From Actinomycetota bacterium (GTDB lineage: Bacteria > Actinomycetota > Actinomycetes > Nanopelagicales > Nanopelagicaceae): DNA of 41,465 nt. This document shows, in pieces, positions 179 to 12,242 of this stretch (positions are counted from its first letter, which is position 1; each line of letters starts with the position of its first letter). The position numbers were made by a program, and so were the translations under genes. Under the pieces are notes generated by a model. It was not told the origin of the DNA. It searched no databases and saw nothing but the letters and a program-made list of their open reading frames with translations. Location of the stretch: NCBI GenBank assembly GCA_015660815.1, contig JACSDF010000008.1, positions 1 to 41,465 on the forward strand, read 5' to 3'.

Positions 179-248
179 TTGGTAAGCCTGTCATACCCAT
201 GCTCTTTAACCAAGGGGTGCAGAGCAAGGGTCCCGTAGATTTTTCTCT

Positions 249-371
249 GTGGATAGCAACAGAACTGCTATCATTTTTGTACTTAGTCAAAGAGTGCGCG
301 TAATACCGCAAGTTACAGAGCAAAAGCCTCACTGATTCATATCTGTGAGGCTTTTGTATTTCGAAGTCATG
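249..371. repeat. Repeat copy A (about 120 bp, carries a terminator hairpin)
   Basis: This stretch is an imperfect direct copy of 559-679, offset by about 310 bp. Shared blocks are TGTGGATA, GTACTT.GTCA.AGTGCGC, AGTTACAGAGCAAAAGCCTC and the hairpin that follows. The minus strand of the middle part resembles the 5' half and anticodon region of the tRNA-like gene at 429-502, but much decayed. No gene is supported here; the reading frames that cross it look alike between the two copies only because the DNA is repeated. Confidence 0.6.
322..355. terminator. Bidirectional intrinsic terminator hairpin (copy A)
   Basis: An 11 bp perfect stem (AAAAGCCTCAC with GTGAGGCTTTT) encloses a 12-nt loop. The A-rich and T-rich stem flanks make it a plausible intrinsic terminator on either strand. 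On the minus strand it would end transcripts coming from the tRNA-like gene before the molybdopterin oxidoreductase start at 178. Confidence 0.7.
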
Positions 372-428
372 CGGGGCTAAAAATAAAAGTAACCCCACGC
401 GACGAACTGTGGGGCTACTTAGAGTGTG

Positions 429-502
429 TACCACTGGCGGAGATTGAACCCGCGACCTACAACATCGTCAGAGTGTCGCTCTATCCACTGAGCTACAGCG
501 GT
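429..502 (-). tRNA. tRNA-like gene, apparent anticodon GAC (Val), imperfect anticodon stem
   Basis: On the minus strand, 502 to 429 folds as a cloverleaf: 7 bp acceptor stem ACCGCTG/CAGTGGT, discriminator A, D-arm GCTC/GAGC with loop AGTGGATA, and T-arm GCGGG-TTCAATC-TCCGC. No CCA is encoded. The anticodon loop is best read as CTGACGA (anticodon GAC, valine), but the anticodon stem only forms with a bulge and a T-T mismatch, and the gene is one nucleotide longer than the standard count. It may therefore be a divergent functional tRNA or a decaying copy. Partial look-alikes of its 5' half occur at about 280-320 and 589-627. Confidence 0.6.
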
Positions 503-558
503 ACACATGCATGAACTTAAGCGATGGATGAGCTAAGCGATTTCGAAATAGTTCCGGT

Positions 559-679
559 TGTGGATACAAGAGTGGTGCTAATATTTAAGTACTTCGTCAG
601 AGTGCGCTCAGTCCAAGAGTTACAGAGCAAAAGCCTCGCAGATTCACTTCTGTGGGGCTTTTGTACTTCTGCTTGCATG
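559..679. repeat. Repeat copy B with a tRNA-like remnant and terminator
   Basis: Second copy of the ~120 bp repeat at 249-371. The minus strand of 589-627 matches the 5' half of the neighbouring tRNA-like gene closely: CTGTA.CTC, TGGA, GAGCG and CACTCTGACGA appear in the same order with small gaps, while the T-arm and acceptor 3' strand are missing. The simplest reading is a truncated tRNA duplicate joined to a terminator hairpin. Confidence 0.6.
629..662. terminator. Bidirectional intrinsic terminator hairpin (copy B)
   Basis: A 13 bp stem including G-T pairs (AAAAGCCTCGCAG with CTGTGGGGCTTTT) closes an 8-nt loop and is flanked by A and T runs. On the minus strand it lies 36 bp beyond the stop of the small membrane-anchored protein at 698-1093 and would serve as its terminator. 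Confidence 0.75.
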
Positions 680-3894: not shown

Positions 3895-4446
3895 ATGGCA
3901 ATATTTGAAAATCGCGGGAAAAGTGCACTATTAGTAATCGATGTCCAAAACGGCGTGGTCGACAATGCCTTTGCACGTGAATCGGTGATCGCCCATATCA
4001 ATGAGGTTATTGCTAAAGCGCGCGCTAAAAACGTTCCGGTTATTTGGGTTCAGCACTCAGATGACGAGTTAGAAATTGGAAGTGAAAGTTGGAAGATTGT
4101 GCCCGAGCTTCAGCCAGGCAGCGATGAAGTTATTATTAGAAAATTGTTTAGAAACACTTTCGTAGAAACTGAGTTAGGAACACTCCTTGAATCCCTTGGA
4201 GTTGATCATTTATACATAACCGGCGCTCAGACAAATAACTGCGTCCGCCATACGTGCCATGGCGCACTTGAATTGGGCTATGACATCACGTTAATCAGTG
4301 ACGCGCATACAACCAGTAGTTATGAGTGGAAAGGCCGAAACGTTTCTGCCTCAGATGTTATCAATGAGCAAAATGACAATTTATCAGGCGAATTATTGCC
4401 TGGCCGCAAAGCTAAAGTTGTCGAAAGCGCCGCGATTACTTTTTAA
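3895..4446 (+). CDS. Isochorismatase-family cysteine hydrolase
   Basis: 183 residues, a normal length for the family. The catalytic triad is visible: D16 in VIDVQNG, K83 in IIRKLFRNTF, and the nucleophile C116 in GAQTNNCVRHT. Members hydrolyse amides or vinyl ethers (nicotinamide, isochorismate, N-carbamoyl compounds); the substrate here cannot be told. Its last 11 bases overlap the 3' end of the convergent amidase gene, so the two form a tail-to-tail pair and both may act on amide substrates. Cytoplasmic, no signal sequence. Confidence 0.87.
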   Translation: MAIFENRGKSALLVIDVQNGVVDNAFARESVIAHINEVIAKARAKNVPVIWVQHSDDELEIGSESWKIVPELQPGSDEVIIRKLFRNTFVETELGTLLESLGVDHLYITGAQTNNCVRHTCHGALELGYDITLISDAHTTSSYEWKGRNVSASDVINEQNDNLSGELLPGRKAKVVESAAITF

Positions 4447-9379: not shown

Positions 9380-10381
9380 TTAATTAACGACCCAGGTATC
9401 CCCCGAATGAAGGAGTTTCTCTAAATCCCCTGCTCCTTGGGCCGTGATGACGCTGGCTAACTGGTCATTGACCATCGCCGAGTAACCAGACCGGATAACA
9501 TCTCGAAATGTACCAATCGGAGTGTGCTCCAGATCTGAGCCAGATAGGCGCGAGAGCGCAAAGGCATATGAGGGATCTGGATCATGAGCATCATGAACCA
9601 CGAGTTGAGACTCATCCACCGAATTCAACTCAACTAACTTCAATATAGCCCCGTCCCGAATCACACCAAAAGTAGAGGATTTGATGGGCTGACCATGAAC
9701 CATCTGCAGCAGAGAGCCCTCTTTGGTTTCATTGTCTTTGACTTGATCAAATGCACCATCGTTAAAGATTGGACAGTTTTGATAAATCTCGATTAAGGCC
9801 GAGCCTTTATGGGCGGCGGCCTGTCGTAAAGTTTCGGTTAAGTGTTTGCGATCGCTATCAATTGTGCGTGCAACGAATGTTGCTTCGGCACCAATTGCTA
9901 GTGAGACGGGATTAAATGGAGTATCGAGTGAGCCATACGGTGTGGACTTTGTAATCTTTCCTAGCTCACTAGCTGGTGAATACTGCCCCTTCGTTAAACC
10001 GTAGATTCGGTTATTAAATAGCAAAATCTTTAACTCCACATTGCGGCGCAGTGCATGAATCAAGTGGTTGCCACCAATTGATAAGGCATCACCATCCCCG
10101 GTAATTACAAAAACGGTCAAATCTGGACGACTAATCGCTAGACCTGATGCAATTGCGGGAGCACGTCCATGGATTGAGTGCATTCCAAAGGTATTGAGGT
10201 AATAAGGAAAGCGCGATGAGCAACCAATGCCCGAAATAAAGACGATATTTTCACGCGGGATTCCAAGTTCAGGTAAAAATGCCTGCATAGTGGAGAGAAC
10301 TGAGTAATCACCGCAACCTGGACACCAGCGAACCTCTTGATCTGACGTGAAGTCTTTCTTTGTTAATGCAACATCAGTCAT
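9380..10381 (-). CDS. korB: 2-oxoacid:ferredoxin oxidoreductase beta subunit
   Basis: 333 residues. The thiamine diphosphate-binding subunit of 2-oxoglutarate (2-oxoacid):ferredoxin oxidoreductase: WCPGCGDY near residue 20, FISGIGCSSRFPYY, HGRAPAIASGLA, and the TPP motif GDGDALSIGGNH followed by NNRIYGLTKGQYSP. Together with KorA it oxidises 2-oxoglutarate to succinyl-CoA (or runs in reverse) with ferredoxin. Actinobacteria commonly use such a KorAB in the TCA cycle. Its start overlaps the korA stop by 8 bp, so translation is coupled. Confidence 0.93.
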   Translation of the reverse strand: MTDVALTKKDFTSDQEVRWCPGCGDYSVLSTMQAFLPELGIPRENIVFISGIGCSSRFPYYLNTFGMHSIHGRAPAIASGLAISRPDLTVFVITGDGDALSIGGNHLIHALRRNVELKILLFNNRIYGLTKGQYSPASELGKITKSTPYGSLDTPFNPVSLAIGAEATFVARTIDSDRKHLTETLRQAAAHKGSALIEIYQNCPIFNDGAFDQVKDNETKEGSLLQMVHGQPIKSSTFGVIRDGAILKLVELNSVDESQLVVHDAHDPDPSYAFALSRLSGSDLEHTPIGTFRDVIRSGYSAMVNDQLASVITAQGAGDLEKLLHSGDTWVVN

Positions 10382-12242
10382 TATGAAGTACCCCCATTGC
10401 AGCTTCGACTAATTCGGCCGTTGTAAATGGCAGACCGCGTACCATGTTGTAGCCCACGATATCTTTCAAATACTTTGATCGAAGCAGCATTGCCAACTGT
10501 CCTAAATTCATTTCAGGTGTTATTACCGTTTCATATTTTTCTAGCACCGCACCTAAATTTTTAGGGAATGGGTTTATATATTTAAGATGAGCTTGGGCGA
10601 TTTTTTCGCCATTATTGCGAAGCTCCTCAACGGCCGATGCGATTGGTCCATACGTTGAACCCCAACCGAGGAACAAAACCTTTGCATCACCTGTTAGGTC
10701 ATCGACTTCGATATCAGGGACTTCAATCCCATCGATTTTCGCTTGACGTGTGCGCACCATAAAGTCGTGATTGGCGGGCTCATAGTTAATCTCACCCGTT
10801 TTATCTTGCTTTTCGATTCCACCGATACGGTGCTCGATTCCGGCAGTACCTGGAATCGCCCAAGGGCGTGCAAGAGTTTCTGGATTTCGCTCATAGGGAA
10901 GAAAATTCTCTTGGCTCTTTGCAAAATCGATATCGAATTTCGGCAACGTTGCAACATCTGGAATCATCCACGGCTCTGAACCGTTGGCAATATATCCATC
11001 GGATAATAAAAATACCGGAACCCGATACGTGGTCGCTATTCGCACCGCCTCCATCGCCATGGTGAAGCAGTCACTGGGAGTTGATGCGGCAATTACGGCA
11101 GCGGGTGATTCACCGTTTCGCCCGAACATTACCTGCAAGAGATCTGCCTGCTCTGTCTTGGTTGGCAATCCAGTCGATGGACCGCCACGTTGAACATCGA
11201 TGATAATTAATGGCAGTTCCAACATCACGCCAAGGCCAATCATCTCGCTCTTTAAAGCGATGCCCGGGCCAGATGTAGTCGTGACGCCAAGGGCTCCACC
11301 GTATGAAGCGCCTAAGGCCGAACCCACTGCAGCAATCTCGTCTTCGGCTTGGAAAGTGATGACGCCAAATTTTTTGTGCTTTGAAAGCTCATGCAAAATA
11401 TCTGATGCGGGGGTAATTGGATATGAACCAAGAAATAGTTTCAAACCGCTTTGTTGTGATGCGGCGATTAATCCATATGAAAGTGCGATGTTTCCGCCGA
11501 TGTTTCGATAGATCCCGGGTGGCATATGTGCAGGTGCAACTTCATATGAGGTCGCAAAGTCTTCGCTAGTTTCGCCGTAGTTCCATCCTGTTCGATATGC
11601 GATTAAATTCGCCTCTAAAATATCTGGCTTCTTAGCAAACTTTGCCTTTAAAAACGCCTCCGTTGCATCGGTTGGTCGGTGATACATCCACGAAAGCAGA
11701 CCGAGTGCGAACATATTTTTTGCACGCTCGGCTTCTTTGCGTGAGAGTGGAAGCTCTGATAGCGCCGACACCGTCATTGAGGTAAGTGCAACTGGATGAA
11801 TCTTGTAACTACTTAAAGTTCCATCCTCTAAAGGATTAGTTTGGTAACCAACTTTAGTTAAATTGCGCGTCGTGAACTCATCTTTATCGACGATGATTGT
11901 GGCACCGCGTGGAATATCTTTAATGTTTGCTTTCAATGCCGCTGGATTCATTGCTACTAATACATCGGGGGCATCTCCCGCAGTTCGCACATGGTGATCG
12001 GCGAAGTGAAGTTGAAATGAAGAGACTCCAGGCAGAGTGCCTTGCGGAGCGCGAATCTCTGCAGGAAAGTTCGGCAGCGTTGAAATATCATTTCCTAAAC
12101 TGGCAGTATCCATTGTGAAGCGATCGCCGGTTAACTGCATTCCATCTCCACTATCACCGGCAAATCTGATAATTACGGATTTGACGGCGACAGTTGGTTT
12201 GCTCATGAGTGACATCTTGCCACCGCAACGCCTGCGGGTCAT
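10374..12242 (-). CDS. korA: 2-oxoacid:ferredoxin oxidoreductase alpha subunit with fused gamma domain
   Basis: 622 residues from the first ATG; internal ATGs at about residues 10 and 13 (MSLMSKP) are equally plausible starts because no position has a strong ribosome site. Residues ~20-200 are the gamma domain (IRFAGDSGDGMQLTGDRF) and the remainder the alpha subunit (GNIALSYGLIAA, LGSYPITPASDILHEL, AEDEIAAVGSALGASYGG, TTTSGPGIALKSE). The gamma-alpha fusion is the standard actinobacterial KorA arrangement. The electron acceptor ferredoxin is not encoded in the window. Confidence 0.93.
   Translation of the reverse strand: MTRRRCGGKMSLMSKPTVAVKSVIIRFAGDSGDGMQLTGDRFTMDTASLGNDISTLPNFPAEIRAPQGTLPGVSSFQLHFADHHVRTAGDAPDVLVAMNPAALKANIKDIPRGATIIVDKDEFTTRNLTKVGYQTNPLEDGTLSSYKIHPVALTSMTVSALSELPLSRKEAERAKNMFALGLLSWMYHRPTDATEAFLKAKFAKKPDILEANLIAYRTGWNYGETSEDFATSYEVAPAHMPPGIYRNIGGNIALSYGLIAASQQSGLKLFLGSYPITPASDILHELSKHKKFGVITFQAEDEIAAVGSALGASYGGALGVTTTSGPGIALKSEMIGLGVMLELPLIIIDVQRGGPSTGLPTKTEQADLLQVMFGRNGESPAAVIAASTPSDCFTMAMEAVRIATTYRVPVFLLSDGYIANGSEPWMIPDVATLPKFDIDFAKSQENFLPYERNPETLARPWAIPGTAGIEHRIGGIEKQDKTGEINYEPANHDFMVRTRQAKIDGIEVPDIEVDDLTGDAKVLFLGWGSTYGPIASAVEELRNNGEKIAQAHLKYINPFPKNLGAVLEKYETVITPEMNLGQLAMLLRSKYLKDIVGYNMVRGLPFTTAELVEAAMGVLHND

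Follow-up and report, generated by a model that had tools for sequence, protein, structure and literature searches.

Sequence evidence for a tRNA-like RNA with a probable, divergently encoded antisense RNA in Nanopelagicaceae

We analyzed contig JACSDF010000008.1 of an actinobacterium from the family Nanopelagicaceae (assembly GCA_015660815.1) over its full length of 41,465 nucleotides, which is referred to as the window in the following and which represents contig C10 of its own genome (G000; 1.585 Mb, 98% complete). The window contains a tRNA-like gene on the minus strand, designated RNA A, which is flanked by two repeats, designated RNA B1 and RNA B2. Our data suggest that the tRNA-like RNA is controlled by a dedicated antisense RNA and that both together form a two-RNA unit, a reading that we consider probable. 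The sequences support the architecture of this unit, the complementarity of its partners, their covariation, and their joint turnover in sister species. From this we infer that both RNAs would be made, that B would inhibit A, and that the unit may persist as a conflict element similar to a toxin-antitoxin or immunity system.

The comparative data set was collected with a family model (R1), which covers the leader, the tRNA body, and the terminator, was derived from 31 copies, and was used to search 135 genomes of the genus. In the window, it matches with 133.5 bits at positions 381-508. The fetched copies of A represent most, not all, of the listed matches at about 80 bits or more, a line that was chosen by us; ordinary tRNAs with terminators seem to reach about 72-77 bits. 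The sample comprises 160 distinct copies, whereby 151 of 160 were parsed and nine were left out because their D- or T-loop motif was not found. A seed complementary to at least 9 nt of the anticodon arm of A was detected upstream of A in one orientation in 89 of 145 copies, this count being restricted to the parsed copies with an upstream region of no less than 330 nt. On the opposite strand such a seed occurred in 1/145 copies, downstream in 3/145 and 2/145, and with swapped upstream regions in 6.5 copies on average. The seed complementarity to the arm of the neighbouring A extends up to 19 nt. For 62 pairs, the seed match had a mean length of 10.8 nt with the own partner compared to 5.9 nt with swapped partners (0/2000), and the duplexes of A and B (n = 64) yielded -41.7 for own and -30.4 for swapped partners. 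In the window, the B2 seed is reverse complementary to the anticodon arm of A over 11 nt (594-604), and the duplex of A and B2 reaches -50.2 kcal/mol, whereas the best of 30 ordinary tRNAs reaches -35.5. For B1, the seed lacks a fit to the present A, but it matches A genes of other species (L115, L124) over 14-15 nt; the duplex of B1 with A (-32.3, compared to -34.1 for the best ordinary tRNA) shows no preference for the present A. Extended complementarity between neighbouring divergent units, whereby B has a putative promoter and terminator of its own, is one feature of an antisense pair, and at the sequence level this was found here. At L323 (G157), the B seed matches the A arm of L221 (G221), a member of another genus, over 16 nt (GAGCACCGCTCTGACG), compared to 13 nt for its own A.

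A second line of evidence comes from closely related loci. G087 and G085/G086 share one common locus with compared flank stretches that are 96-100% identical, while the anticodon arms are ACCTCTATGACGAAGAGG and ACGCCAATGACTAAGGCG, respectively. The B seeds fit their own A over 19 and 17 nt, the terminator loops also differ (TTCGTCA and TTAGTCA), and a further B located downstream differs mainly in its seed. G118 carries a third arm at apparently the same site. In sister species whose flanks are 95-100% identical, a different arm goes along with a different seed and a different terminator loop, which indicates that the predicted A-B pair remains matched in relatives despite very rapid change of its sequence. 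This turnover may occur by fast mutation, gene conversion, or allele exchange. The original prediction had named a high-scoring, conserved tRNA with unrelated flanks in relatives as the outcome that would refute it; instead, three relatives match the tRNA-like gene and the repeat together at 74-77% identity.

The flanking repeats had been interpreted as carriers of decayed tRNA pieces and terminators. The direct repeats as such are real, with 52 nt at 88% identity (311-362/618-669) and a further 14 nt at 93% identity (462-475/591-604), but the part in common with the tRNA-like gene comprises only the D-arm as well as the 5' side and loop of the anticodon arm, without the acceptor. On the plus strand, the B layout consists of the box TGTGGATA, an extended -10 element, the seed, a small hairpin, GAGTTACAG (AAGTTACAG in B1), and a terminator. 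B2 and B1 fold better than shuffled sequences (z -3.8 and -4.5, respectively), and the predicted folds leave the 5' end with the seed unpaired in both. Of 90 seeded copies, 76 carry the motif TGnTAnnnT at most 30 nt before the seed (0/90 in the control window), and in these the seed starts at a median of 7 nt behind the motif, which places it at the predicted 5' end of B. A motif search, in which the B-like units had not been selected by TGnTAnnnT, yielded 64 units upstream and antisense to A, 14 downstream and antisense, and one in each of the same-strand positions; since it missed many units, a seed search took its place for the counts. Of 69 B references, 40 were included in the B alignment. 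The gap that separates A from the B seed is of promoter size, with a median of 85 nt from the model start. The repeats are thus predicted to be plus-strand transcription units and not decayed remnants (Table 1).

Table 1. Elements of the two-RNA unit and its surroundings in the window
Feature	Positions	Strand	Basis or remark
Box TGTGGATA upstream of B1	248..255	+	sequence
Extended -10 of B1 (TGCTATCAT)	266..274	+	alignment
RNA B1, orphan B	281..357	+	predicted
Intrinsic terminator of A	387..420	-	loop AGTTCGTCGC (408-399) complementary to anticodon loop GACGA
RNA A, tRNA-Arg-derived tRNA-like body with hypervariable anticodon arm	429..502	-	Rfam RF00005, ARAGORN, model R1
Anticodon arm of RNA A	about 459-476, loop about 464-471	-	
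4-nt leader GUGU, base-paired to trailer ACAC (426-429), extends acceptor helix	503..506	-	covariation over 31 copies, fold
-10 of A (TAAGTT)	514..519	-	predicted
DnaA-box-like TTGTGGATA (reverse complement TATCCACAA)	558..566	+	between divergent A and B2 promoters
Extended -10 of B2 (TGCTAATAT)	576..584	+	predicted
RNA B2: 5' seed, small hairpin, GAGTTACAG, terminator 627-664	591..664	+	predicted

It could be that B is nothing but a decaying tandem duplicate of the 5' half of A that possesses a promoter and a terminator by chance. B does resemble the antisense of this half, a duplication link is plausible, and gene conversion could keep the arms alike; however, B has stayed matched in the arm, where A varies most, whereas the D-arm part, the most constant one, has drifted. 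Together with the frequent extended -10 element, the better-than-shuffled folds of B, and the retained order of seed, hairpin, and terminator, this makes the duplicate explanation highly improbable. Decay of tRNA pieces is also contradicted by the seed, which tracks the hypervariable arm of its neighbour, and by A itself, in which all 7/7 acceptor pairs are kept in 147/151 copies.

Some further B-like sequences were noticed. In the window, the inverted repeat GCCCCACAGATTCATCTCCGAGAGGCCTTT at 1147-1176 resembles B terminators and is possibly another relic of a B unit. A search of the own genome for the repeat yielded no second full copy of 200-720 but a second tRNA-like gene of the A family at C36:2474-2547 (L069). 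Three B-like genes lie within about 4 kb there (C36:2-107, 2304-2398, and 4166-4275), whereby the one nearest to this second A is complementary to it over 13 nt. L102 (G005) harbors an array of B seeds at about 10,200-10,900, some of which fit local A genes, while one resembles the A arm of G036 (L106).

The suggestion that the site serves as an attachment site used by an integrating element, with the flanking repeats as attL/attR remnants, did not hold up. Direct repeats of the D-arm and anticodon arm are indeed common to B and A, and copies of A lie in stretches of variable gene content, but no integrase was found among the Pfam-scanned proteins (20 near A in relatives, 20 in the window). 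In most genomes, no more than one or two matches to tyrosine recombinases are present, and these resemble XerC/XerD; the PF00589 matches in G014 and G015 are far from A. The A pattern had no match in IMG/VR contigs, and the unit was found neither in phage records, where the sole match was an annotated phage tRNA-Arg over 51% of the query, nor in plasmid records, where the sole match covered 52% of the query. No element is present between the candidate att copies, as only the promoter-sized gap separates B seed and A. Moreover, the stems that an integrase would bind are not conserved but constitute the most variable part, whereas promoter, seed, and terminator of B occur in fixed order. We therefore rejected this explanation and give it almost no credence. 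A neighbourhood of mobile genes was likewise rejected, since the neighbours are metabolic or small unknown genes with an order reshuffled between genomes; a YoeB/Phd pair near L095 is not a general feature. At L092, L095, L096, L102, and L106, A is located among small genes (DUF4864, TspO, SOUL, glutaredoxin) in differing order, and the stretch around A seems to be prone to rearrangement there.

RNA A itself is a tRNA-like gene with an irregular anticodon stem, as had been proposed. It matches the Rfam tRNA family (RF00005) at 502-429(-) with 49 bits against a gathering cut-off of 29, which is the third lowest score among 39 tRNA matches above the cut-off in its own genome, and ARAGORN reports 428-502(-) as tRNA-??? 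with the 4-base 'anticodon' gacg. Fourteen family members in eight related loci scored 45.9-64.9 bits, and Rfam scans of the window and these eight loci revealed no family besides tRNA. For 138/151 copies of A, the closest tRNA of the own genome is a tRNA-Arg. The copies carry A20 in the D-loop, which among 37 ordinary tRNAs of that genome occurs only in the five tRNA-Arg, and the discriminator is A in 116/151 and G in 22/151 copies. The identity elements of arginyl-tRNA synthetase (ArgRS) are A20, a discriminator A or G, and C35-[G/U]36. A20, the discriminator, and a loop C followed by G or U, which is present at the same place in 147/151 copies, fit this identity. By these features RNA A is a descendant of tRNA-Arg, and it might still be chargeable by ArgRS.

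The 18-nt anticodon arm of A in the window, read by eye, contains either a C.U mismatch or a U bulge, its loop comprises 7 to 8 nt, and it lacks the canonical combination of a 7-nt loop on a 5-bp stem with the expected purine at position 37. Many arms of the family have 8-nt loops or bulges. Ordinary tRNA-Val has A37. At position 37, the 151 copies have U (85 copies), G (62), C (3), or A (1), while U33 is present in 124 and GAC or AAC at positions 34-36 in 142. Read by position, the loop thus has an anticodon GAC or AAC with U/G37, and shifted by one it has C35-[G/U]36. The arm is hypervariable yet paired, with a mean folding energy of -2.99 kcal/mol compared to -1.37 after swapping of the 3' strands. 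In the tested loop and position-37 features the predicted RNA is not a canonical tRNA, and the arm is best read as an address that changes and not as an anticodon used for decoding.

A might nevertheless serve in translation as a spare Arg- or Val-like tRNA whose supply is regulated by B as an ordinary antisense RNA. The tRNA-like body intact in the Rfam scans and the frequencies of U33 and of GAC/AAC would be in line with this. U or G at position 37 in 147/151 copies, the hypervariable arm with its many enlarged loops or bulges, and the discriminator that is paired within a helix of leader and trailer (see below) argue against it, as does the fact that about half of the genus genomes are without A among the matches listed. 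The own genome also contains ordinary tRNAs of both kinds, namely five tRNA-Arg and two tRNA-Val genes (GAC and TAC); a further tRNA-Val GAC, which had been suggested as a check, is thus present elsewhere. For this reason a role as an ordinary isoacceptor gap-filler was rejected, and we regard the spare-tRNA explanation as unlikely.

As a putative -10 element of A, TANNTT is located no more than 16 nt ahead of the model start in 133/150 copies, compared to 21/150 in a control window. The leaders GCGU or GUGU pair with the trailers ACGC or ACAC, with a mean of 4.08 of 5 pairs (148 copies) compared to 3.50 with swapped partners and 1.9 in 30 ordinary tRNAs. Since leader and trailer pair, the discriminator base sits inside a long helix, which should hinder RNase P. 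The anticodon loop is in addition complementary to the loop of the terminator: 88.9% of the cells are paired in the 31-copy alignment, and two pairs covary (G-C 26/A-U 4 and G-C 14/U-A 12). The longest match over 140 distinct copies has a mean of 5.18 nt compared to 4.09 nt after shuffling of the 140 unique arm and loop combinations (0/2000), and the matched loop variants include GACGA, GACTA, AACTA, AACGA, AACGC, TTACTA, CACGA, GGCTA, GACGG, and CGCAAGT. Upstream of A, T[TA]TNCACA occurs within 110 bp in 101/150 copies, with a distance to the model start that is almost always 54-58 bp, compared to 3/151 in the downstream control. Of 13 complete genomes, three contain close pairs of TTATCCACA, which are restricted there to the start of the chromosome and surround its first gene; in G014 this gene is dnaA. 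Thus, these bacteria probably use the sequence of the box near A as their DnaA box, and it may have a timing role. Copies without B (L092, L096, L125-L128; L095@9681, L104, L157, L162) have different inverted repeats that span the promoter of A (GCGGTACGCAAT...ATTGCGTACCGC or AACCTAAGTCAG...CTGACTTAGGTT), which are perhaps a different control device.

As far as searched, the A family is confined to Nanopelagicaceae (freshwater actinobacteria, the genus of Planktophila). Among the matches listed (about 80 bits or more, E < 1e-15, counted by eye), at least 71 of the 135 genus genomes have a copy of A, and copies at about 80 bits or more also occur in other genera of the same family. Matches at E <= 0.001 were obtained in every genome of both model searches and are taken to be ordinary tRNAs with terminators. 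Of 13 complete single-contig genomes of the genus, nine contain one or two copies and four contain none (E <= 1e-14).

According to the proposed mechanism, A would be transcribed from its own promoter, its 4-nt leader would pair with the trailer, and the transcript would end at its own terminator, while B would be read divergently from the same DnaA-box promoter region. The unpaired 5' end of B would form pairs with the anticodon arm of A (its 5' strand and its loop) and, less perfectly, with the D-arm, so that B should open the fold of A and silence it. The contact between the anticodon loop of A and its own terminator loop would act as a second lock in cis. Beyond this, the unit might represent an RNA-only conflict system of a tRNA-like effector A and a sequence-specific antidote B, which we put forward tentatively as a possibility. 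A would then harm or mark a cell that lacks the matching B, for instance by occupying ArgRS or the ribosome; new arm/seed pairs would arise fast, alleles would be exchanged at chromosomal sites that stay the same, and B genes left from earlier pairs would remain as immunity to A genes of other strains. Such a toxin-antitoxin reading is suggested by the patchy distribution together with B genes that occur without A in G089, G156, and the incomplete genome G024.

Several observations weigh against the two-RNA unit or its toxin-antitoxin interpretation. In 56/145 copies there is no upstream seed of at least 9 nt, and G014 holds two A genes without a convincing B, which speaks against a toxin-antitoxin system. 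The G085 locus L165 represents a mismatched pair, possibly an intermediate. Several A lineages, notably those with the acceptor GCCTCTG/CAGGGGC, have no match of loop and terminator, and no sigma-70-like promoter with a -35 element was found in this stretch of the window. Furthermore, the shuffles ignore relatedness and gene conversion, so that a match would likewise be expected for a B that had just been copied from A. It could also be that A is a sponge that titrates B-type small RNAs, which in turn regulate other targets such as mRNAs. Orphan B genes without a matching A exist, and 3' trailers of tRNA transcripts are known as sponges. However, the seed changes together with the arm of A, which predicts A as the main target, and the terminator loop of A has the same sense as the seed and thus cannot bind it, so that we consider a sponge very unlikely and prefer antisense control of A by B.

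The unit shares features with several known systems. As in type I toxin-antitoxin systems such as hok/sok, an antisense RNA lies beside and opposite to its target, orphan antitoxins exist, and the distribution is patchy, but the target here would be a tRNA-like non-coding RNA instead of a toxin mRNA, and no toxin peptide is known. RNA I/RNA II of ColE1 likewise involve a cloverleaf-like RNA, antisense loop contacts, and changing loops that create new specificities, whereas the present unit is chromosomal, no replication primer is known, and A appears to be a true tRNA descendant, as its Rfam tRNA match indicates. Sponges of the 3'ETS-leuZ type (3'ETS, 3' external transcribed spacer) also employ the trailer of a tRNA transcript for regulatory pairing, but here the trailer terminator would use its loop to pair with the gene's own anticodon loop. 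T-box riboswitches resemble the unit in that an RNA reads an anticodon loop next to a terminator; in contrast to them, the unit has no downstream mRNA leader and no Rfam match besides tRNA. As described in two reports, CreTA consists of the RNA toxin CreT, which sequesters a tRNA, and the antitoxin guide RNA CreA, and thus is likewise a pair of small RNA genes that does without a toxin protein, involves a tRNA, and relies on complementarity between the partners (PMC8501985, PMC10097628); the present unit differs from it as a tRNA-like RNA with a divergent antisense RNA that carries a terminator. In the open-access literature, as far as its texts were accessible, no description of such a tRNA-like/antisense RNA pair was found, which points to a so far undescribed candidate two-RNA control unit.

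tRNA-like genes with odd arms are easily dismissed as decayed. Here, they constitute a maintained and fast-evolving family in abundant freshwater bacteria, in which many A genes have an apparent antisense RNA of their own. If expression and pairing hold true, tRNA-like RNAs would join the targets of dedicated antisense control, and the family would provide a natural set of many orthogonal RNA pairs. It would then also be of interest which selection favors change at a locus that encodes only RNA. If the conflict interpretation is correct as well, these bacteria would possess a toxin-antitoxin or self-recognition system made up of a tRNA and an antisense RNA alone.
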